Positions 15,546 through 40,912 of a DNA stretch of 64,000 nucleotides are shown piece after piece. The notes below the pieces were generated by a model. The model was not told where the DNA came from, searched no databases, and saw only the letters and a program-made list of their open reading frames with translations. A program made the translations under genes and the position numbers. Source of the DNA: Collinsella sp. 4_8_47FAA (lineage in GTDB: Bacteria; Actinomycetota; Coriobacteriia; Coriobacteriales; Coriobacteriaceae); contig NZ_KN214134.1 of NCBI RefSeq assembly GCF_000763055.1, positions 120,346-184,345 on the forward strand, in the 5' to 3' direction. Numbering within the stretch: the stretch's first letter is position 1; the number at the start of each line of letters is the position of its first letter.

Positions 15546-15935
15546 ATGGGTAAGACTTTCAGCTTTGTCTCCGGCGCACTTTTTGGTGCCGCTGCCGGCG
15601 CTATTGTCGGCGTTGCTCTGGCCCCGCGCTCGGGCGCCGAGACCCGCGCCATGGCTGCCGATATCGCCAACGACGCCTGGGACAATATGCGCGACACCTA
15701 CGAGCACAGCGCCGAGGAGGCCCGTGCTGCGGTGAATGACTTTGGCCCGATGGTCGACGCCAAGACCGACGACCTGCGCGCCAAGGTCGACCTTGCCCGC
15801 GAGCGCATGGACCAGCTGCGCGAGCAGCTCAACGACGCCATTTCGGGCGGCAACGTGACGCCTGCCGCCGACGTCGTGGTCGAGAACGCCGTCGAGGCTG
15901 ATACCGAGGCTGCGGAGCCCTCGACCGAGGCATAA
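15546..15935 (+). CDS. YtxH-domain protein
   Basis: A 129-residue protein. It opens with a glycine/alanine-rich membrane helix (FSFVSGALFGAAAGAIVGVALAP) followed by RSGAETR, the YtxH signature, then a long charged helix (about 35-100) and an acidic tail. YtxH-like proteins are small membrane-associated proteins linked to stress responses; the mechanism is unknown. I chose the second of two close ATGs because the ribosome site is too near the first (15540). Its stop overlaps the start of the PRC-barrel gene (TAATG), so the two are translationally coupled. Confidence 0.85.
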   Translation: MGKTFSFVSGALFGAAAGAIVGVALAPRSGAETRAMAADIANDAWDNMRDTYEHSAEEARAAVNDFGPMVDAKTDDLRAKVDLARERMDQLREQLNDAISGGNVTPAADVVVENAVEADTEAAEPSTEA

Positions 15936-16690
15936 TGCGCGCCGGGGATTTTGTCGGCGCCAAGATCTATCGCAAGCCTACCGAGGACAAGCGCACCAAA
16001 AAGGACGGCACACCGCGCAGCCCTAAAAAGCTCGGAAAGATTCACTTTCCGGTCTTTACCCCGGGCGGTACGCGCGTGGTCGGCTTTATGGTCCGCCAGT
16101 CCGATATCGCGGGCATGATCGAGCGTCCCGACCGATTCGTAGCGCTCGACGCCATTGGTGTCTACGAGGGCGCCATTGCGGTCGATGACGTCAAGGACAC
16201 GTACGATGCCGCCGCTGCCAAGCGCCTCAACATCAACCTGGACGATTGCATCATCTGGGTCGGTATGGATGTGCGCACGGAATCGGGCGACGTCGTGGGC
16301 TATTGCTCGGACGTTGAGTTCAAGCCACGCTCGGGCATCGTGCAGGCATTCTATGTGACCGCCGGTGCTGCTTCGAGTGTTTTGGTTGGTGACACGCAGG
16401 TGCCGCCGACGATGCTGCGCGGCTATGCGGACGGCGCGATGATTGTTTCGGACGAGGTCAAGTCGCTCGGGTATTCGGGCGGTGCGGCTGCCAAGGCCGC
16501 CGAGGCCAGCGTCGTGGTGGGCGACAAGGTCAAAAAGGGCGCCAAGGTGCTCGACGACAAGGGATCGGTTGCCGTGGACAAGGGCAGTCGCGCACTGGGC
16601 AAGCAGCTCGGCAAGACGCGCGGCATGTTCAAGGCCTTTAAGGACGAATACCAAAAGGCGAGCGGAGGCTCGTCAAAAGCTACAAAATAG
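15935..16690 (+). CDS. PRC-barrel domain protein
   Basis: A 251-residue, apparently cytoplasmic protein with two PRC-barrel-like beta segments, roughly 1-95 (GKIHFPVFTPGGTRVVGFMVRQ) and 96-165 (WVGMDVRTESGDVVGYCSDVEF). The C-terminal third is Lys/Ala-rich and helical. PRC barrels are small beta domains found in RimM, reaction-centre subunit H and storage or envelope-linked proteins. A PRC-like N-terminus is also present in the MgtE-like protein at 18498. The partner is presumably the membrane YtxH protein whose stop it overlaps. Confidence 0.8.
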   Translation: MRAGDFVGAKIYRKPTEDKRTKKDGTPRSPKKLGKIHFPVFTPGGTRVVGFMVRQSDIAGMIERPDRFVALDAIGVYEGAIAVDDVKDTYDAAAAKRLNINLDDCIIWVGMDVRTESGDVVGYCSDVEFKPRSGIVQAFYVTAGAASSVLVGDTQVPPTMLRGYADGAMIVSDEVKSLGYSGGAAAKAAEASVVVGDKVKKGAKVLDDKGSVAVDKGSRALGKQLGKTRGMFKAFKDEYQKASGGSSKATK

Positions 16691-16762: not shown

Positions 16763-18169
16763 ATGCGCCAAAACGGATCCAACTTAAACGGGCGTTCGGG
16801 TGCGCGTCCGACGGCGCGCCGCGATCTGGGGCAGCTGCCCAGCGGTCAGCGCAAGCGTCACCGTAAGCCCGGCGCGATGTATCTCAACCATAGCCGCGGC
16901 TTTAGCGACCGCAGCGCTCGCATCGGCAACAACCGTACGCCCCGTCGTTCGTCTCGCCTGCCCTATGCGCTCATTGCCGTGGGCTGTGCGCTCGTGCTGT
17001 TTATTGCTGCCGTCGTGGGCTACGTCAACCGCAGTGTGGACGTGGAGCTCAACGGCCAGAAGACCGCGGTGCGTGTGGGCTCTACGCTGCAGAATCTCAT
17101 CGACGACCAGGAGTTGACTGACACCTACGACGCAGGCGACCTGCTGGCCGTCGATGACAGCGTGCTCAAGCGCCATGGGGGCGAAAAGCTGTCGGTGAAG
17201 GTCGACGGCAAGCGCGTGAAACAGGGCAAATGGGATAGCCGCGAACTTGAGGGCGGCGAGAAGGTGACGGTCAAGGATGGCCGTAACACCTACGAGAAGC
17301 ACGAGGTTCAGGCTACGGTTATCGAGCCCAAGCTCAAGGTCGAGGGTACGGGCGCTATCGAGTATGTGCAGACGTGGGGTGTCCAGGGCCGCTCCGAGGT
17401 GTGGGTTGGTGAGCAGTCGGGCAAGACGCAGGACCGCGGCGAGGTTGTGCCCGCCACCGATTGCGTCGTTGCGTGCGCCAGCGTGGCGCCCAAGGGTAAC
17501 GAAAAATACGTGGCGCTGACGTTTGACGAGGGTCCGAGCGGCGCCACCAAACAGATCTTGCAGGTGCTCAAGGAAAAGGGCGTCACCGCGACGTTCTTCC
17601 TTTCGGGCGATGCGGCCGAGGCCTCGCCTGCCACGGCCAAGGCGATTGTCGATGCCGGGTGCGAGATCGGATCCAACAGCTACAGCGACGATTTGCTCAA
17701 GGGTCAGGACCGTGAGGCGGTACGCGAACAGATCACGAAAGGCACCGATGCGATTAAGTCGGCGACCGGCGTGAAGACGATGCTGCTGCGTGCTCCCTAC
17801 GCTGCCTTTGACGAGCAAAACTGGATTGATGCGATGGACCTGGTCTCCGCCGTGGTCTCGTGGAATATCGACTCGGGCGACTGGCTGCTCAACGGTGCCG
17901 ACGAGCAGGTCTCGACGGTGCTCGATTCGGTGACGCCGGGCAATATCGTGCTGCTCACCGATAGAGACGAATGCGCCGAGCAGACGCTCGAGGCGCTACC
18001 GCAGATTATCGACGGCCTCATTGCCGACGGCTACAAGATCGTGACGCTCAGCGACCTGGTCAAGACGGACACGTCGCTGAGCAAAAAGCTCACCTCGCTG
18101 ACGAAGGCCACCATGCCCAAGGACGCCGTGTTCCCCCAACTTGCCGAGGACAACGACACCACAGAGTAG
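16763..18169 (+). CDS. deacetylase-fold (NodB-like) membrane protein lacking metal ligands
   Basis: A 468-residue protein: a basic cytoplasmic tail (1-66), one membrane helix (68-88), a DUF348/G5-like beta region (90-235), then a NodB-homology domain (248-455). In active NodB deacetylases motif 1 is TFDDGP and motif 2 is H(S/T)xxH. Here motif 1 is TFDEGP (253-258) and motif 2 reads EIGSNSYSDD (301-310), with both zinc His replaced by Asn and Ser/Asp. The usual His near the end is also gone (IVLLTDRDE, 395-403). WNIDSGDW is kept. It therefore probably binds glycan or peptidoglycan without hydrolysing it. ATG 16763 follows GGGGGAGGG. Confidence 0.85.
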   Translation: MRQNGSNLNGRSGARPTARRDLGQLPSGQRKRHRKPGAMYLNHSRGFSDRSARIGNNRTPRRSSRLPYALIAVGCALVLFIAAVVGYVNRSVDVELNGQKTAVRVGSTLQNLIDDQELTDTYDAGDLLAVDDSVLKRHGGEKLSVKVDGKRVKQGKWDSRELEGGEKVTVKDGRNTYEKHEVQATVIEPKLKVEGTGAIEYVQTWGVQGRSEVWVGEQSGKTQDRGEVVPATDCVVACASVAPKGNEKYVALTFDEGPSGATKQILQVLKEKGVTATFFLSGDAAEASPATAKAIVDAGCEIGSNSYSDDLLKGQDREAVREQITKGTDAIKSATGVKTMLLRAPYAAFDEQNWIDAMDLVSAVVSWNIDSGDWLLNGADEQVSTVLDSVTPGNIVLLTDRDECAEQTLEALPQIIDGLIADGYKIVTLSDLVKTDTSLSKKLTSLTKATMPKDAVFPQLAEDNDTTE

Positions 18170-18177
18170 TTATTGGG

Positions 18178-18206
18178 TAGTCATTTAAGAACGTCCCCAA
18201 TGACTA
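18178..18206. repeat. 13-nt-core hairpin (GGGGAC family)
   Basis: Arms TAGTCATT/AATGACTA (18178-18185, 18199-18206) flank the 13-nt core, complement GGGGACGTTCTTA. It begins nine bases after the stop of the deacetylase-fold gene. Confidence 0.85.
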
Positions 18207-18283
18207 TGTCACGGATGCGTCAGCGTTTGGTATGCCTGCAATGTGCAGCGCATAAATTCGATGCCGCAGGGCGATGCTGATGC

Positions 18284-18497
18284 TATAGTTACTGCGGTTA
18301 ATGAGGGTCAAGAGAAAGGTTACAGGTGAAATCCAAACCTCGACCATACAGTCGATGACCCCATGCAGGTGCTTTTTGCGCATGCACGGGGTGTAAGCGT
18401 CGAGCGGCGTGCCGCCCGCGCATGCGTATACATATCCAGAAGCCCCCGGACGCCGCACGCGCGGCCGCGTCCGGAGGAATAATGATGGGGAGCACCA
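18284..18497 (+). promoter_or_regulatory. structured leader of the MgtE-like/NRMT operon, possible ion-sensing RNA
   Basis: A TATAGT box at 18284-18289 would start a transcript near 18296. The next 65 nt can fold as a three-way junction: GGGTC/GACCC (18305-18309, 18357-18361) closes AGGTT/AACCT (18317-18321, 18336-18340) and TCGAC/GTCGA (18340-18344, 18351-18355). A further GC-rich hairpin CCGGACGC/GCGTCCGG (18446-18453, 18467-18474) abuts the ribosome site GGGGAG. Short pieces (GGGTCAAGAGAAA, CCATACAG) recall M-box Mg2+ riboswitches, but the 5' M-box core is not evident. I call it a candidate regulatory RNA only. Confidence 0.4.
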
Positions 18498-20342
18498 TTG
18501 AATTATCTGAGTGAGATGCTCAAATTGCCGGTCTTGGACGTCGACGGCGAAAAGCTCGGCGTGGTGAACGATTTTGGCATTGCTACCGGCGAAGTTTTTC
18601 CGCACGTGACGTCGCTCGCGTTCCGCGGACCCGGCAAGACGCCGTTTATGATCAGCTGGCGCAAATGGGTCGACCGTATCGACGAGACGGGTGTACACCT
18701 TAAGACGTCGGCCACCGAAATCCGTTTTTCGTACCTGCAGCCGACCGAACTCCTGCTCGCCCGCGACGTGCTCAACAAGCAGATTGTCGACACGCAGGGC
18801 ATGAAGGTCGTGCGCGTCAACGACATCAAGTTTTCCATGTCGGGCGAAAATCAGCTGCGCCTGCTGGGCGCCGAGGTCGGTGCCCGCGGTCTGCTACGCG
18901 CCATCAGCCCCGCGCTCGAGCATATCGTCGAAGGCTTTATGAAGCACCTGGGCAAGCCGCTCAGTGAGGACATCATCGCTTGGTCCTACATGGACCTGCT
19001 CGACCGCTCGACCAAGAACATTCAACTCTCGGTGTCGCACAAGACGCTCGGCGAGCTGCACCCTGCCGACATCGCCGACATTATCGAGCAGCTCGACCCG
19101 CGCCTGCGTGCGCAGGTGTTTGCGCAGCTCGATACTGCCCAGGCCGCCGAGGCCATCTCGGAGTTCGATGACGACGAGCTTATGACCGAGATGCTCGAGG
19201 GCCTGTCCGACACCGACGCATCGTCGATGCTGGCCATGATGGACCCGGACGACGCCGCCGATCTGATCGACGAGCTCGATTACGAGAAGGCCGAGAAGCT
19301 CCTGCGCCTGATGGGCGTCAAGGAAGAGAAAGCGATTCGTAACCTGCTGGGGTATGAGGACAACACCGCCGGCCGCATCATGACCTCGGAGTTTGTCTCG
19401 CTGCCCGCCACGGCGACGGTCGGCGATGCCATCGAGGCGATTCGCAAACTCGATGAGGACTTCGAGAGTGTCTATTACGTCTATACCGAGGATCCGAGCG
19501 GCATGCTCACCGGCGTGCTCTCGCTGCGCACGTTGATCGTGGCCGACCGCGATGCCACGCTGGGCCAGCTCGCCTATCGCGACCTGGTCTACGTGTCGCC
19601 CGACGAGGACCAGGAAGACGTGACGGACGAGATGACCAAGTACGACCTGGTTGCCATCCCTGTCTGCGACGAGAACCGTCATATCCTGGGCATCGTGACC
19701 TTCGACGACGCCATGGACGTTATCGCCGAGGAGCATCAGGAGGACCTGCAGATCGCCGGTGTCGGCTCGGGCGATAGCGCGTCGGACGACTCGACGAACG
19801 TGCTCAGCTGGTTCGTGCATCGCCAGTACTGGGTTGTCGTGTGGGGCATTGCCTCGTGCATCATGGCAACGGTGCTGGGGACGGCGCTCGGCTCCGCGCA
19901 TCTGGTGGTGTTCCCCATGTGCGCCATGCCGCTCGTGCTGCTTGCTGCCTCGCGCATGGTGTCGTTCGTCAAGAACTACTTCTTGGAGTATGACGGTCAC
20001 GACGACGAGCCCAAGCCATATCTGGGGTTCTTCTTCCAGAGCACGGGCATGGGCCTGATTCTGTCACTCGTGACCTATCTGTGCGCCCAGCTGGTGCGCA
20101 CCGCCGCGTTTCCCGATGCGCCCATGTTTGAGGAGCAACTCTTTACCGGCTGCTTTAATATCGCTGCCATCATTTGCCTGGTTGGCAACATGAGCGCCGT
20201 GATTTACCTGATGGTGCTGTTCTGGCGTGACGAGCATGACCTCAACACGTCGGGCACCGCCATGAACGTTATTGCCGTCATGATCTCGTGCATAGCGTAC
20301 TGCGCCGCTGCGGTGCTGCTCACCATGTCGGTCATGGGTTAG
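18498..20342 (+). CDS. MgtE-like protein: PRC barrels, MgtE_N, CBS pair, divergent membrane domain
   Basis: A 614-residue protein, longer than usual MgtE (about 450). Residues 1-150 look like two PRC-barrel-like modules. About 185-300 is the MgtE_N superhelix (LGELHPADIADIIEQLDP, then repeats ending in FDDDELM and MDPDDAADLIDEL). Two CBS motifs follow (RIMTSEFVSLPATATV, VAIPVCDENRHILGIVT). The last 180 residues hold five membrane helices but lack the glycine/asparagine motif (GNxGTQ) and the Asp-containing last helix of Mg2+-conducting MgtE. It may be a Mg2+ sensor for the transporter encoded eight bases downstream. The start is TTG 18498 behind GGGGAG; no ATG fits the frame before residue 7. 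Confidence 0.8.
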   Translation: MNYLSEMLKLPVLDVDGEKLGVVNDFGIATGEVFPHVTSLAFRGPGKTPFMISWRKWVDRIDETGVHLKTSATEIRFSYLQPTELLLARDVLNKQIVDTQGMKVVRVNDIKFSMSGENQLRLLGAEVGARGLLRAISPALEHIVEGFMKHLGKPLSEDIIAWSYMDLLDRSTKNIQLSVSHKTLGELHPADIADIIEQLDPRLRAQVFAQLDTAQAAEAISEFDDDELMTEMLEGLSDTDASSMLAMMDPDDAADLIDELDYEKAEKLLRLMGVKEEKAIRNLLGYEDNTAGRIMTSEFVSLPATATVGDAIEAIRKLDEDFESVYYVYTEDPSGMLTGVLSLRTLIVADRDATLGQLAYRDLVYVSPDEDQEDVTDEMTKYDLVAIPVCDENRHILGIVTFDDAMDVIAEEHQEDLQIAGVGSGDSASDDSTNVLSWFVHRQYWVVVWGIASCIMATVLGTALGSAHLVVFPMCAMPLVLLAASRMVSFVKNYFLEYDGHDDEPKPYLGFFFQSTGMGLILSLVTYLCAQLVRTAAFPDAPMFEEQLFTGCFNIAAIICLVGNMSAVIYLMVLFWRDEHDLNTSGTAMNVIAVMISCIAYCAAAVLLTMSVMG

Positions 20343-20350
20343 GTGGTCGC

Positions 20351-21613
20351 GTGCAAAATACCAAGCAAAAGTCGGGCACCAAGCAAAAGTTGACCATCGC
20401 GGCCATCTTTGGCGCTATGGGTCCCGGTCTGCTGGCGGCGCTTTCGGGCAATGACGCCGGCGGCATTGCAACGTATTCCAGCGCGGGCGCCAGCTATGGC
20501 TACAAGATGCTGTGGATGCTTCCTGTCATGACCGTGCTGCTCATCGTGACGCAGGAGACCGCGGCGCGCTGCGGCTGCGTCACGGGCAAGGGCCTGGCAT
20601 CGCTCATTCGCGAGCGCTTTGGCGTGCGCAAGAGTGTACTTGCTATGGCGGCGCTGTTGATCGCCAACACGGCTGTGACCATTTCGGAGTTTGCGGGCAT
20701 CGCCAGCGGCCTTGCTCTCTTTGGCGTGCCGGCGAGCATCTCGGTGCCGTTGGTGGCGCTGCTGGTGTGGATGCTTACCATGTCGGGTAGTTTCCAGCGC
20801 ATCGAGAAGATTCTGCTGCTGGTAAGCTGCGTCTTCGTGACCTATATTGTCGCCGCGTTTATGGCTGGCCCCAACTGGGGTGAGGTCGCGGTCGACCTGG
20901 TCGTGCCTAACATTCAAAATGACCCCAGCTACGTGTCGCTCGTGGTCGCAACGATCGGTACCACCATCGCGCCGTGGATGATTTTCTTGGCGCAGAACAA
21001 CGTGGTCGATAAGAACGCGGGCGAGGACGATATCGTGCTGCAGCGCATCGATACCGTGAGCGGCTCGCTTGCCGCCGATGTCATTGCCGGCTTTATTATC
21101 ATCACGACCGGTGCGGTGTTGTTCCCGGCGGGCATTCAGATTAGCGATGCTGCCGATGCTGCCCGTGCGCTGGAGCCTATTGCGGGTCAGTGGTCCACGG
21201 TACTGTTTGCCTCGGGCCTGGTCGCGGCGAGTTTCTTGGCTGCCTGCGTGCTGCCGGGCGTTACGTCGAGCGCTATCTGCGAGGCATTTGGCTGGGAGCG
21301 CGGTGCCGACCGCAGCTGGGACGAGGCCCCGGTCTATCGCGGCATCATTACGGCCATCATCGGTATCTCTGCCGTGCTGGTGCTTATGCCCGGCGTCGAT
21401 CTGTTCCAGATTATGATGACCTCACAGGTCATCAATGGTGTGCTGTTGCCCGTGGTTCTGGTGTTCCAGGTGGTTATCGCAGCCGACCGTCACATTATGG
21501 GTGCCAACCGCAATGGCCGCGTGTGGAACGTGCTCACTTGGGCGACTATCGCCGTGATTACGGTGCTGACAGTCGTCATGTTTGTGCTGCAAGCGATGGG
21601 CTACAGCGCGTAG
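20351..21613 (+). CDS. NRAMP-superfamily transporter of the Mg-selective (NRMT) type
   Basis: A 420-residue, eleven-helix SLC11/NRAMP protein. Canonical NRAMPs have DPGN in helix 1 and MPH in helix 6 for Mn2+/Fe2+. Here helix 1 has DAGG (residues 35-38, in LLAALSGNDAGGIATYSSAG) and helix 6 has APW (207-209, in GTTIAPWMIFLAQNN). Loss of the metal-binding Met and Asn is the hallmark of the NRMT subgroup, structurally characterised from Eggerthella lenta as a Mg2+/Mn2+ carrier, as I recall it. The start is GTG 20351 with AGGTGG upstream. It follows the MgtE-like gene by eight bases, supporting a magnesium role. Confidence 0.87.
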   Translation: MQNTKQKSGTKQKLTIAAIFGAMGPGLLAALSGNDAGGIATYSSAGASYGYKMLWMLPVMTVLLIVTQETAARCGCVTGKGLASLIRERFGVRKSVLAMAALLIANTAVTISEFAGIASGLALFGVPASISVPLVALLVWMLTMSGSFQRIEKILLLVSCVFVTYIVAAFMAGPNWGEVAVDLVVPNIQNDPSYVSLVVATIGTTIAPWMIFLAQNNVVDKNAGEDDIVLQRIDTVSGSLAADVIAGFIIITTGAVLFPAGIQISDAADAARALEPIAGQWSTVLFASGLVAASFLAACVLPGVTSSAICEAFGWERGADRSWDEAPVYRGIITAIIGISAVLVLMPGVDLFQIMMTSQVINGVLLPVVLVFQVVIAADRHIMGANRNGRVWNVLTWATIAVITVLTVVMFVLQAMGYSA

Positions 21614-38143: not shown

Positions 38144-40912
38144 CTACAGCAGCTCGCCGTGGCGGGCAATGTAGCGGCGCTTTGCCAGCTGGGTGAGCGC
38201 GATATAGGCGGTAACGATGCCAATGAGCAGCCCAAAAAAGCTCGCGGGCAGCGGCATGAGGCCGAGCGCATCGGCGATGGGGCTTGCCGGCAGCCAGGTG
38301 ACGAGCGCCAGGCCCAGCACGGTAAGAACGCACAATGCGGGCGCGGCGTGGTCGCGCGGGCTCGGCAGATGCGGGGAGCGCAACATGTGGACCACGAGTG
38401 TCTGCGACCACATGGACTCGACAAACCAGCCGCTCTGGAAGAGCGCAGCAAAGGTCGCCATACCCGCGACGTCGCCCGCGGCGGCAAGCTCGGACCAGCT
38501 TGCGTCCACGGCGGCGGGGCACACGACAAAGAAGAGCGCGGCGAAGGTCACGATGTCAAACAGCAAGCTCACGGGGCCCAGCTCGAGCATAAAGCCCTTG
38601 ATGGATGCGGCGTCCCAGGCACGCGGGCGGGCAGTCCAGGCGTCATCGACGGTGTCCCACGGCAGTGCGATGCACACGATCTCGTAGACCAGCGACAGCA
38701 GTACCAGCTGCAGGGCGCTCATGGGCAAAAACGGCAAGAACAGGCTCGCGACGGTCACGGACAGCACATTGCCAAAGTTGGAGCTCACCGTGGTCTTGAG
38801 GTACTTGAGCAGGTTGCCGTAAGTGCGGCGGCCTTCGATGATGCCGCGCTCGAGCACGCCCAGGTCCTTCTGAAGCAAGATGATATCGGCGGATTCCTTG
38901 GCAATATCGACGGCCGAATCGACCGAGATGCCGCAATCGCTCGCACGCATGGCGGCGGCGTCGTTGATGCCGTCGCCCATAAAGCCCACGGTGTGGCCGA
39001 GCATCTCGCGCATGACACGTACCAGGCGCGCCTTCTGCAGCGGCGAGAGCTTGGCGAAGAGGTGGGTTTTCTCGGTGCGCTCGGCAAGTTCGGCGTCATC
39101 GAGCGCATCGATCTCGGAGCCGAGCAAGACGTTGCTCGCATCGATACCAATCTGCTCGCAGACGGTGGCGGCGACGCGGTCGTTGTCGCCGGTTAGGACC
39201 TTGACCGCCACGCCCTTGGCCTCGAGGGTGGCGACGGCGCCCGCGGCACTTGCTTTGGGCGGATCGAGGAAGGCCAAAAAGCCCATCAGCACCATGTCGC
39301 ACTCGTCAGCGATGCCAAACTCGCCCACGCAGCGCGGATTGGTCTTCTGCGCCACGGCAATTACGCGTAGGCCCTCAGCGTTAAGTCCGACGATCTGCTT
39401 GCGAATCTGGGCGAGCTTCTCGTCGGTGAGCGGCTGAGCGATGCCATCGATCTCGACAAAGGAGCAGATCTCGAGCATTTCCTCGGCAGCGCCCTTGGTA
39501 ACCATCTGGGTTTTGCCTTGGGCGTCGGCGACAACTACGCTCAGGCGACGGCGCGAGAAATCGAAGGGAACCTCGTCGACCTTGGTATAGCGGTCGCGCA
39601 GACTCTGGCCCAGTATAGAATCGGGCACGACGGTCGAGGGCGTCACATCGGCACGGTCGATTACGGCCAGGTCGATAAGGTTTTTGAGGCCGGTTTGGAA
39701 GAAGCTATTCAAAAATGCATGGCGCAGCACGCGTGCGTCTTCGTTGCCGTCGGTGCTGAGATAGCGCTCGAGCACGATGCAGTCTTCGGTGAGGGTGCCG
39801 GTCTTGTCGCAGCACAGGACGTCCATCGCGCCGAGGTTTTGAATCGCCGGCAGCTCCTTGACGATAACCTGGCGACGGGCGAGGTCCTTGGCGCCCTGCG
39901 ATAGGCTCGTGGTCACGATGACGGGAAGCATCTGCGGCGTGATGCCCACGGCCACGCTCGTGGCGAACAGCAGCGCGTCGATGACGTTGCCCTTGGTGGC
40001 GGCGTTGATGGCAAAGACGGCCGGCGCCATAACGAGCATCAGGCGCACCAGCAGCATGGAGACGCTCGAGACGCCGCGGTCAAACGCGCTCTTTTCGCCG
40101 CGCCCGTTGAGCATCTTGGCGATGCCGCCCAGGTAGGTGTCCGAGCCGGTGGCAACGACAAGCGCCATGGCGGCGCCGTTTTGCACGGAGGTGCCGGTAA
40201 AGACGATATTCTTGCAGGCAGAGAGTGGCAGTGCGGAGCCGTCGGCGCCCTCGACGACGGTGACGGCGGTGGTCTTCTCGACGGCCTCGCTCTCGCCGGT
40301 GAGTGCGGACTCGATCACAAACAGGTCGCGCGCGGTGATGATGCGGGCATCTGCCGGCACCATATCGCCGGCAGAGAGACGGATTACATCGCCGGGGACG
40401 AGCTCGTCGAAGGGGATCTCGATGCGCTCGCCGTCGCGCAGGGCGGTGCAAGTGTTGGAGACCAGGTCCTTGAGGGCCTCGGCCGCATTGCCGCTGCGGG
40501 CTTCCTGGATAAACTTCATGCCGCCCGATACCAGCAGCATGGTGCCGATGACGATGACCGTGGAGGGGTCGCGCTGCGGTTCGGGCACGGCGAGCACGTC
40601 GATGTAGAGCGAGACCAGTGCGAGCGCGGCGAGGATGCCGGCGAAGGGATCGATGAACGCGTCGGCGATGCGGCGGGCGAGCGTTTTGGTCGTTGCCTCG
40701 ATGGTGTTGGGGCCGACGGCGTTCAGGCGTTCAGTTGCCTGCTCGACGGTGAGGCCGTTTGCCGTGGCGTCAAGCAGTACGAGGGCGTCCTCGGCACTAT
40801 GGGTGGCGGCGAATATGGTGTTCTTGGACAGGCCGGTATGAGCGGCAGGGCGCGCCGTGCGGCGGCGCTTGGAGATGGCTTCGAGTACCGTGACGGTTTT
40901 GAGCATCAGCAT
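38144..40912 (-). CDS. mgtA: magnesium-translocating P-type ATPase
   Basis: A 922-residue P3B-type ATPase that would import Mg2+ using ATP. Visible landmarks are the actuator motif LTGESEAVEK, the ion-site helix VGITPQMLPVIVTTSLSQGA, phosphorylation motif CCDKTGTLTEDC, KGAAEEML in the nucleotide domain, LTGDNDRVA and the hinge GFMGDGINDAAAMRASDCG. The C-terminal helices include VSSNFGNVLSVTVASLFLPFLPMSALQLVLLSLVYEI, which is characteristic of MgtA/MgtB. ATG 40912 is preceded by AAGGAGGA. The gene is preceded by a roughly 270-nt leader with a short upstream ORF and hairpins. Confidence 0.95.
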   Translation of the reverse strand: MLMLKTVTVLEAISKRRRTARPAAHTGLSKNTIFAATHSAEDALVLLDATANGLTVEQATERLNAVGPNTIEATTKTLARRIADAFIDPFAGILAALALVSLYIDVLAVPEPQRDPSTVIVIGTMLLVSGGMKFIQEARSGNAAEALKDLVSNTCTALRDGERIEIPFDELVPGDVIRLSAGDMVPADARIITARDLFVIESALTGESEAVEKTTAVTVVEGADGSALPLSACKNIVFTGTSVQNGAAMALVVATGSDTYLGGIAKMLNGRGEKSAFDRGVSSVSMLLVRLMLVMAPAVFAINAATKGNVIDALLFATSVAVGITPQMLPVIVTTSLSQGAKDLARRQVIVKELPAIQNLGAMDVLCCDKTGTLTEDCIVLERYLSTDGNEDARVLRHAFLNSFFQTGLKNLIDLAVIDRADVTPSTVVPDSILGQSLRDRYTKVDEVPFDFSRRRLSVVVADAQGKTQMVTKGAAEEMLEICSFVEIDGIAQPLTDEKLAQIRKQIVGLNAEGLRVIAVAQKTNPRCVGEFGIADECDMVLMGFLAFLDPPKASAAGAVATLEAKGVAVKVLTGDNDRVAATVCEQIGIDASNVLLGSEIDALDDAELAERTEKTHLFAKLSPLQKARLVRVMREMLGHTVGFMGDGINDAAAMRASDCGISVDSAVDIAKESADIILLQKDLGVLERGIIEGRRTYGNLLKYLKTTVSSNFGNVLSVTVASLFLPFLPMSALQLVLLSLVYEIVCIALPWDTVDDAWTARPRAWDAASIKGFMLELGPVSLLFDIVTFAALFFVVCPAAVDASWSELAAAGDVAGMATFAALFQSGWFVESMWSQTLVVHMLRSPHLPSPRDHAAPALCVLTVLGLALVTWLPASPIADALGLMPLPASFFGLLIGIVTAYIALTQLAKRRYIARHGELL

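Follow-up and report, generated by a model that had tools for sequence, protein, structure and literature searches.

Introduction

In the closest described systems, the gene for an Mg2+ carrier of the NRMT (NrmT) type stands beside a gene related to the Mg2+ channel MgtE. Shin et al. (2014, PLoS Genet; PMC4072509) reported that most NrmT genes adjoin a gene homologous to the cytoplasmic domain of MgtE and suggested that this neighbour provides feedback by cytoplasmic Mg2+; the published partner is described as a small cytoplasmic-domain protein, and the cited passages of that paper make no link to the Mg2+ pump MgtA. Here we describe a related pair in a 64,000-nucleotide stretch of DNA from Collinsella sp. 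4_8_47FAA (class Coriobacteriia; contig NZ_KN214134.1, positions 120,346 to 184,345), hereafter the window, in which the MgtE-like partner of a predicted NRMT adds a full membrane domain of the MgtE type that lacks the pore residues. We propose, with a probability of about 0.58, that this protein is an Mg2+-sensing regulatory subunit of the neighbouring NRMT, that its pore-dead domain acts as a membrane coupler and that the sensor is portable to MgtA.

The NRMT of Eggerthella lenta (EleNRMT; 7QIA/7QIC; Ramanadane et al. 2022, PMC8806188) is 57% identical to the window carrier and shares its DxxG-TxxA signature; an MgtE-like partner is not mentioned in the cited sections of that paper. In the Eggerthellaceae examined, the NRMT partner is about 450 aa long and, unlike the window sensor, has no membrane domain. 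The MgtE channel of Thermus thermophilus (TtMgtE; 2ZY9, 4U9L, 5X9H) has in common with the window sensor the MgtE_N domain, the CBS pair, the plug helix, the transmembrane (TM) fold and the cytosolic Mg-site residues, whereas the window sensor has neither the filter GTGGNTGNQ nor Asp432, bears an N-terminal PRC domain and is paired with a separate carrier. The MgtA-type Mg2+ P-type ATPase (TIGR01524), a transporter of unrelated fold, is an alternative sensor partner, adjacent in the genomes of group f7 and fused in Candidatus Geothermincola.

Results

An MgtE-like gene lies 8 bases upstream of an NRMT gene

A first-pass annotation of the window had read an MgtE-like gene and an NRAMP gene 8 bases apart as a possible single system, and its coordinates for the pair are exact (18498-20342, and GTG at 20351 to 21613). 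The features of the pair are as follows.

18498..20342, + strand: MgtE-like sensor gene, 614 aa, TTG start, with the predicted order PRC, MgtE_N, CBS pair, plug helix and pore-dead MgtE membrane domain (open reading frame (ORF); Pfam; TIGR00400, 219 bits; AlphaFold2 (AF2) model, pLDDT 87.1)
18501..18680, + strand: PRC-barrel domain, aa 2-61 (Pfam PF05239, 32.3 bits)
19056..19364, + strand: MgtE_N domain, aa 187-289 (Pfam PF03448, 86.2 bits; residue mapping to TtMgtE)
19365..19742, + strand: CBS pair, aa 290-415 (Pfam PF00571, two CBS stretches; residue mapping to TtMgtE)
19701..19757, + strand: helix equivalent to the plug helix of MgtE, aa 402-420 (AF2 model; residue mapping)
19806..20339, + strand: membrane domain, aa 437-614, predicted MgtE fold with five TM helices, pore residues lost (model of this domain alone; Foldseek; alignment)
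19929..19970, + strand: site of the MgtE selectivity-filter motif, here PLVLLAASRMVSFV (alignment to TtMgtE)
20343..20350, + strand: 8-base intergenic gap from the sensor stop to the GTG start of NRMT (ORF coordinates)
20351..21613, + strand: predicted NRMT-type NRAMP Mg2+ carrier, 420 aa, GTG start (Pfam PF01566, 297 bits; 57% identity to EleNRMT)
20453..20464, + strand: D35-A-G-G38, TM1 half of the NRMT signature, DxxG (alignment to EleNRMT; signature from PMC8806188)
20960..20971, + strand: T204-T-I-A207, TM6 half of the NRMT signature, TxxA/T (alignment to EleNRMT; signature from PMC8806188)

MgtE_N and the CBS pair exceeded their Pfam cut-offs, while TIGR00400 (mgtE) remained under its cut-off of 232.75 bits, its alignment stopping at profile position 322 of 450. 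As to the extra PRC modules that the annotation had described, Pfam finds one, and the sole hint of a second is a set of beta strands in the AF2 model, at about 84-167. The NRAMP protein had been assigned the NRMT pattern, and this assignment agrees with both tests of clade membership: DAGG and TTIA fit the binding-site signature DxxG (TM1) - TxxA/T (TM6) given for NRMTs (PMC8806188), and the protein is close to a member with measured Mg2+ transport, being identical to EleNRMT (7qia) at 234 of 407 positions.

Sensor and NRMT go together throughout Coriobacteriia

We surveyed 197 Coriobacteriia genomes, of which 162 gave a match to NRMT and 183 a match to the sensor. To leave out MntH-like matches and those to canonical MgtE, we applied a cut of E 1e-50, at which 156 genomes had both genes, 3 NRMT only, 8 the sensor only and 30 neither (Fisher p 9e-25, without correction for descent); these classes were counted by hand, genomes without a listed match being taken as negative and G137, a fragment, as neither. 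In the three NRMT-only genomes (G101, G115 and G133), the matches were fragmentary or a piece of the sensor lay at the edge of a contig. All 150 NRMTs listed for the class have the sensor gene directly upstream on the same strand (143 pairs scored by script and 7 read from tables; in one, G049, the partner is split in two frames), indicating that the pairing is not due to chance and that the two genes form one conserved pair, as the annotation had supposed.

The annotation had also named a general lack of this neighbour among NRMTs as the finding that would speak against a joint system. This does not apply to Coriobacteriia but holds in part outside the class, where 24 of 48 strong NRMTs among the matches listed (at least 298 bits, phylum survey) have an adjacent sensor, 10 of these sensors with a membrane domain and 14 soluble. 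Again among the matches listed, 21 of the 48 have a non-adjacent sensor in the same genome (the 15 genomes of group f36 are all among these), and 3 are without a listed sensor, which is not proof of absence. Counted from the sensor, NRMT is adjacent at 18 of 27 loci outside Coriobacteriia (L204-L230); of the nine others, L206 has its sequence end within 90 bases of the sensor. An M-box riboswitch lies upstream of a subset of NrmT-associated partners, in our search before the sensor at 3 of 13 loci (L205, L208 and L217, all Firmicutes); none was found at the window sensor. A natural sensor-NRMT fusion was set aside, as none of the long frames in G184, G079 and G182, judged by coordinates, was shown to be one.

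The Mg2+-sensing residues of MgtE are kept

Eight cytosolic Mg-site residues of TtMgtE were compared (E59, D91, D95, D226, D247, D250, E258 and D259; PMC5882242), and the window letter is identical at 8 of 8. E218, D251 and D255 in MgtE_N correspond to E59, D91 and D95; D383, D404 and D407 in the CBS pair to D226, D247 and D250; and E415 and D416 in the plug helix to E258 and D259. The sensing parts that the annotation had recognised as MgtE_N and CBS are thus retained both as Pfam domains and in their sensing residues. In the alignment of 128 sensors, there is hardly any variation at the D91 and D247 sites; the E59 and D226 sites vary. The E258 and D259 sites are Glu (56/56) and Asp (56/56) in NRMT-adjacent membrane-bound sensors, and likewise Glu and Asp in 14 of 14 ungapped membrane-bound sensors without NRMT (16 in all); in soluble sensors, which end near there, they are not generally Glu/Asp.

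Among the residues of the MgtE ATP site (PMC5529423), the window sensor keeps Y170 and R187 (as Y327 and R344) and not D188, N203 and F227. The adenine contacts N203 and F227 are Y360 and L384 in the window, and Leu is usual at the F227 site in relatives. Since these adenine-contact residues are not kept, ATP sensing was set aside as the main signal.

The membrane domain is related to that of MgtE and has lost the pore residues

A Pfam search of the window sensor with PF01769, the MgtE membrane domain, gave no match at E<=1. Among its relatives, PF01769 matches form a graded ladder that begins at 61.7 bits (L282), 61.3 bits (L283) and 35.1 bits (L267; cut-off 27.6), passes through 20-33 bits in other Coriobacteriia families and ends with no match in the sensors of Coriobacteriaceae and Atopobiaceae. 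With a model of the window membrane domain alone (pLDDT 93.7, pTM 0.87), the six best Foldseek matches were all MgtE (probability 0.99-1.00, TM-score 0.51-0.56, E 0.006-0.21), and apart from these six no probability exceeded 0.5 among the 50 matches listed. VIA-align gave Z 13.0 to 4u9n over 168 residues (root-mean-square deviation 4.7), and designed helical proteins reached 12.4. The sequence ladder outweighs these structure matches, because the Foldseek E values are weak and the VIA-align score is nearly equalled by designed proteins. Together, the ladder and the models indicate that the membrane domain of the sensor descends from MgtE.

The GNxGTQ motif and the last-helix Asp, reported missing by the annotation, are indeed absent: the filter region aligns as PLVLLAASRMVSFV in the window sensor vs PVLLGTGGNTGNQS in TtMgtE, and the TM5 Asp position is non-acidic. 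The site of this pore Asp (D432 in TtMgtE), mutation of which abolishes TtMgtE conduction (PMC5882242), is acidic in 0 of 89 membrane-bound sensors and Asp in 12 of 12 canonical MgtE rows, which hold duplicates (about 7 are distinct) and were chosen by the pattern GG[NS].G.Q, three of them also by the Asp. Because the canonical rows were picked by the filter pattern, the filter columns offer no independent contrast with them. Within the 89 sensors, GGN of the filter is intact in none and Q333 is rare. The G325 site is Arg in 22 of 31 rows from other Coriobacteriia and in 18 of 19 rows from outside the class, and the N329 site is Asp/Glu in 28/31, 16/19 and, for Atopobiaceae, 14/17 rows; in Coriobacteriaceae, N329 is replaced by Arg (17 of 18 rows). 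The alignments thus point to an MgtE membrane domain that is pore-dead across a whole clade of membrane-bound sensors. In most families outside Coriobacteriaceae, Arg at G325 together with Asp/Glu at N329 may form a salt-bridge lock that seals the old pore. The TIGR00400 equivalog passes the pore-dead L282 (366 bits) and L267 (290 bits) over its cut-off as 'magnesium transporter', and such labels are likely over-annotation in databases.

We calculated the ratio of nonsynonymous to synonymous substitution rates (dN/dS) for the parts of the pair. In 14 close sequences it was 0.032 for the sensor membrane domain (first half 0.005, second half 0.060), 0.011 for MgtE_N, 0.015 for CBS and 0.039 for the PRC region; for NRMT it was 0.029 (10 sequences). 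A value near 0.03 indicates that the membrane domain is in use, under purifying selection, and functional decay of this domain was rejected. Between families, mean pairwise identity in Coriobacteriia is 26% for the membrane domain vs 62% for MgtE_N+CBS (861 pairs, the membrane domain never being higher); outside the class it is 30% vs 59% (153 pairs), and in canonical MgtE 30% vs 35% for the cytosolic part (15 pairs). Such fast change between families fits lineage-specific coupling or anchoring better than it fits an ion pore.

The sensor also occurs beside MgtA or fused to it

In both genomes of f7, G026 and G032, the gene for an MgtA-type ATPase is followed after 23-24 bases by that of a soluble sensor of 412 aa, and neither genome has an NRMT match; the MgtA of G026 scores 1151 bits to TIGR01524. 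In Candidatus Geothermincola secundus (L202:5001-8954), one ORF of 1317 aa comprises a sensor (PRC, MgtE_N, CBS) and a Mg-translocating P-type ATPase, which is complete (1099 bits to TIGR01524, cut-off 610.75). A second genome (G378, L265:3090-7043) carries the same 1317-aa fusion with a sensor 90% identical to the first and 1077 bits to TIGR01524.

In an IQ-TREE analysis of 76 sensors out of 128 (the other 52, mostly near relatives and long branches, were omitted by choice), the MgtA-linked sensors nest inside the membrane-bound-sensor clade yet are without the dead membrane domain. This tree calls for two changes in the MgtA link and four in the membrane domain; with a root among soluble forms, the four would agree with a single gain of the domain and three losses, in Eggerthellaceae, f7 and the fusion. 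Support for the membrane-bound-sensor clade is 0.51 in FastTree with L204 and 0.999 without it, and 96/91 in IQ-TREE. L204, from Ktedonobacterales, is the earliest-branching membrane-bound form; its MgtE membrane domain scores 32.2 bits and is without the pore Asp, and no NRMT gene adjoins it.

Other surroundings of the sensor were also seen. At four actinomycete loci (L296, L297, L298 and L299), a soluble sensor adjoins a DUF1003 membrane protein (PF06210, 110.9 bits in L297), a possible further membrane partner. In f36 the membrane-bound sensor stands in an order without a transporter, with FHA, MerR and Mut7-C-like genes and then two more, one D-Ala carboxypeptidase-like and one for a phosphoribosyltransferase (all named by eye). 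A membrane-bound sensor in a recurring transporter-free order, with NRMT elsewhere, is found at L267, L268, L270, L271, L272, L273, L279 and L284. At L102 (G171, Coriobacteriaceae), which has no NRMT match, the next genes after the membrane-bound sensor are prmC-like and YrdC-type (by eye). The sensor at L141 (G029) is 781 aa long, and its long extra C-terminal region lies outside every Pfam family.

The window and its genome hold further genes that bear on the pair. A PRC-barrel gene upstream of the pair (15935-16690, + strand) has a PRC homologue next to the MgtA and sensor genes of L135 (31% identity, 6e-27), and by this likeness appears to be a second recurring companion. The window also contains an MgtA gene.

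38144-40912, - strand: MgtA-type Mg2+ P-type ATPase (TIGR01524, 983 bits, genome search), about 18 kb from the sensor

CorA and a canonical MgtE membrane domain were not found in the window's genome (99.95% complete), and NRMT and MgtA therefore appear to be its visible Mg2+ importers.

Discussion

The proposal of a regulatory subunit builds on what the sequences carry, namely the architecture, the kept Mg-site and lost pore residues, the purifying selection on the membrane domain, the class-wide pairing, and MgtA as neighbour and fusion partner; beyond these we infer Mg2+ binding, contact between sensor and carrier, and inhibition by high Mg2+. Cytoplasmic Mg2+ would bind MgtE_N and CBS of the sensor at the sites that close MgtE, the plug helix would relay the Mg2+-driven change to the non-conducting MgtE-derived membrane domain, and this domain would link the sensor to the carrier within the membrane, with slower import by NRMT as the outcome of high cytoplasmic Mg2+. 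The sensor would be portable, being soluble with NRMT in other lineages and joined to the MgtA pump in two, in one of them by fusion.

Several observations weigh against this proposal. The NRMTs Ca_c0685 and Ca_c3329 complemented alone, with no need of the partner, and rescue was no better when the MgtE-like gene of Acidobacterium capsulatum was co-expressed (PMC4072509). The membrane domain diverges so fast between families that a conserved docking surface cannot be seen in it. Rfam detected no M-box in the window at gathering, nor at E<=1 in 17900-18700, and riboswitch control of the window sensor was dropped. Six of the 197 class genomes (G171 and five of group f6) lack NRMT and have no MgtA beside the sensor, yet the sensor is kept in its membrane-bound form, and in f36 the sensor is not adjacent to NRMT, both being present in 15 of 15 surveyed genomes among the matches listed; the sensor is therefore not strictly an NRMT subunit. 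Finally, an approximately unbiased (AU) test did not reject a single switch from NRMT to MgtA (p 0.145), and we therefore hold the claim to one or two switches, two being favoured by the tree.

It is unlikely that the MgtE-like protein is itself a channel for Mg2+ (or another cation) with altered pore chemistry, NRMT being an independent importer in the same operon. Such a channel would account for the kept MgtE fold and the purifying selection on it, for the six class genomes with a membrane-bound sensor and no NRMT, for the TIGR00400 scores of L282 and L267, and for the filter replacement common to many membrane-bound sensors (G325 to R, N329 to D/E). It agrees poorly with the loss from all 89 sensors of D432, which MgtE needs to conduct, with the state of GGN and Q333, and with a membrane domain that diverges far faster than the cytosolic part when the two parts of canonical MgtE are similar. 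In addition, Eggerthellaceae dropped the membrane domain while the pair stayed, and of the six NRMT-less genomes with a membrane-bound sensor, 5 of 5 tested have MgtA elsewhere in the genome.

We give a similarly small chance to the protein being a factor that serves the carrier (or MgtA) in assembly, stability or localisation and does not report Mg2+. In NRMT-adjacent sensors of other Coriobacteriia families, the N-terminal region with PRC shares 60-68% identity with that of the window, above the value for CBS, as might be expected of such a factor; the fusion and neighbour data suit any physical partner, and co-expression left Mg2+ rescue unchanged in one tested pair (PMC4072509). However, the Mg-site and plug-helix acids, needless for a plain scaffold, are kept, and some soluble sensors follow Mg2+ riboswitches.

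It is quite improbable that the signal for the sensor is not Mg2+ but a nucleotide, ATP/ADP or another, read by the CBS pair, or else Mn2+. CBS pairs often bind nucleotides, and two residues of the MgtE ATP site are retained, but both adenine contacts are replaced, with Leu the rule in relatives at one of them. For Mn2+ there is the A. capsulatum NrmT, which rescued Mn2+ and not Mg2+ (PMC4072509). Least credible is co-transcription alone, with two Mg2+-related genes held together and no physical or regulatory contact, which would suit the unlinked sensor and NRMT of f36 but hardly explains a sensor fused to an Mg2+ pump in one polypeptide in two genomes.

The core idea of pairing and feedback is not new, since it was published by Shin et al. 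2014, and the interpretation in the first-pass annotation is partly supported with that idea already in print. New here are the MgtE-derived but pore-dead partner domain, the Coriobacteriia-wide counts and the same sensor beside or fused to MgtA; the homology of the membrane domain to that of MgtE, its apparent pore loss throughout the clade and the joining to MgtA also go beyond the annotation. Titles and abstracts of the open-licence papers listed in our searches yielded none on an MgtE-sensor/MgtA fusion, a pore-dead MgtE partner, or DUF1003 with magnesium.

If the sensor gates NRMT carriers as well as MgtA pumps, a single module would account for the feedback that keeps two unrelated importers from taking up too much Mg2+; a natural fusion of sensor and MgtA places the parts for a direct test of this idea in one polypeptide. 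The MgtE-like partner is most likely a channel that became a regulator, and would be a worked example of such a change. For the species of the window, the sensor-NRMT pair may be a main Mg2+ route, though MgtA is present too. More tentatively, and with somewhat less than even confidence, we suggest that a channel minus its pore became an interchangeable membrane regulatory subunit and that the PRC-MgtE_N-CBS sensor serves three outputs (an NRAMP-fold carrier, a fused P-type ATPase and the remnant of its own channel), so that Mg2+ feedback would be a module separate from the transporter fold.

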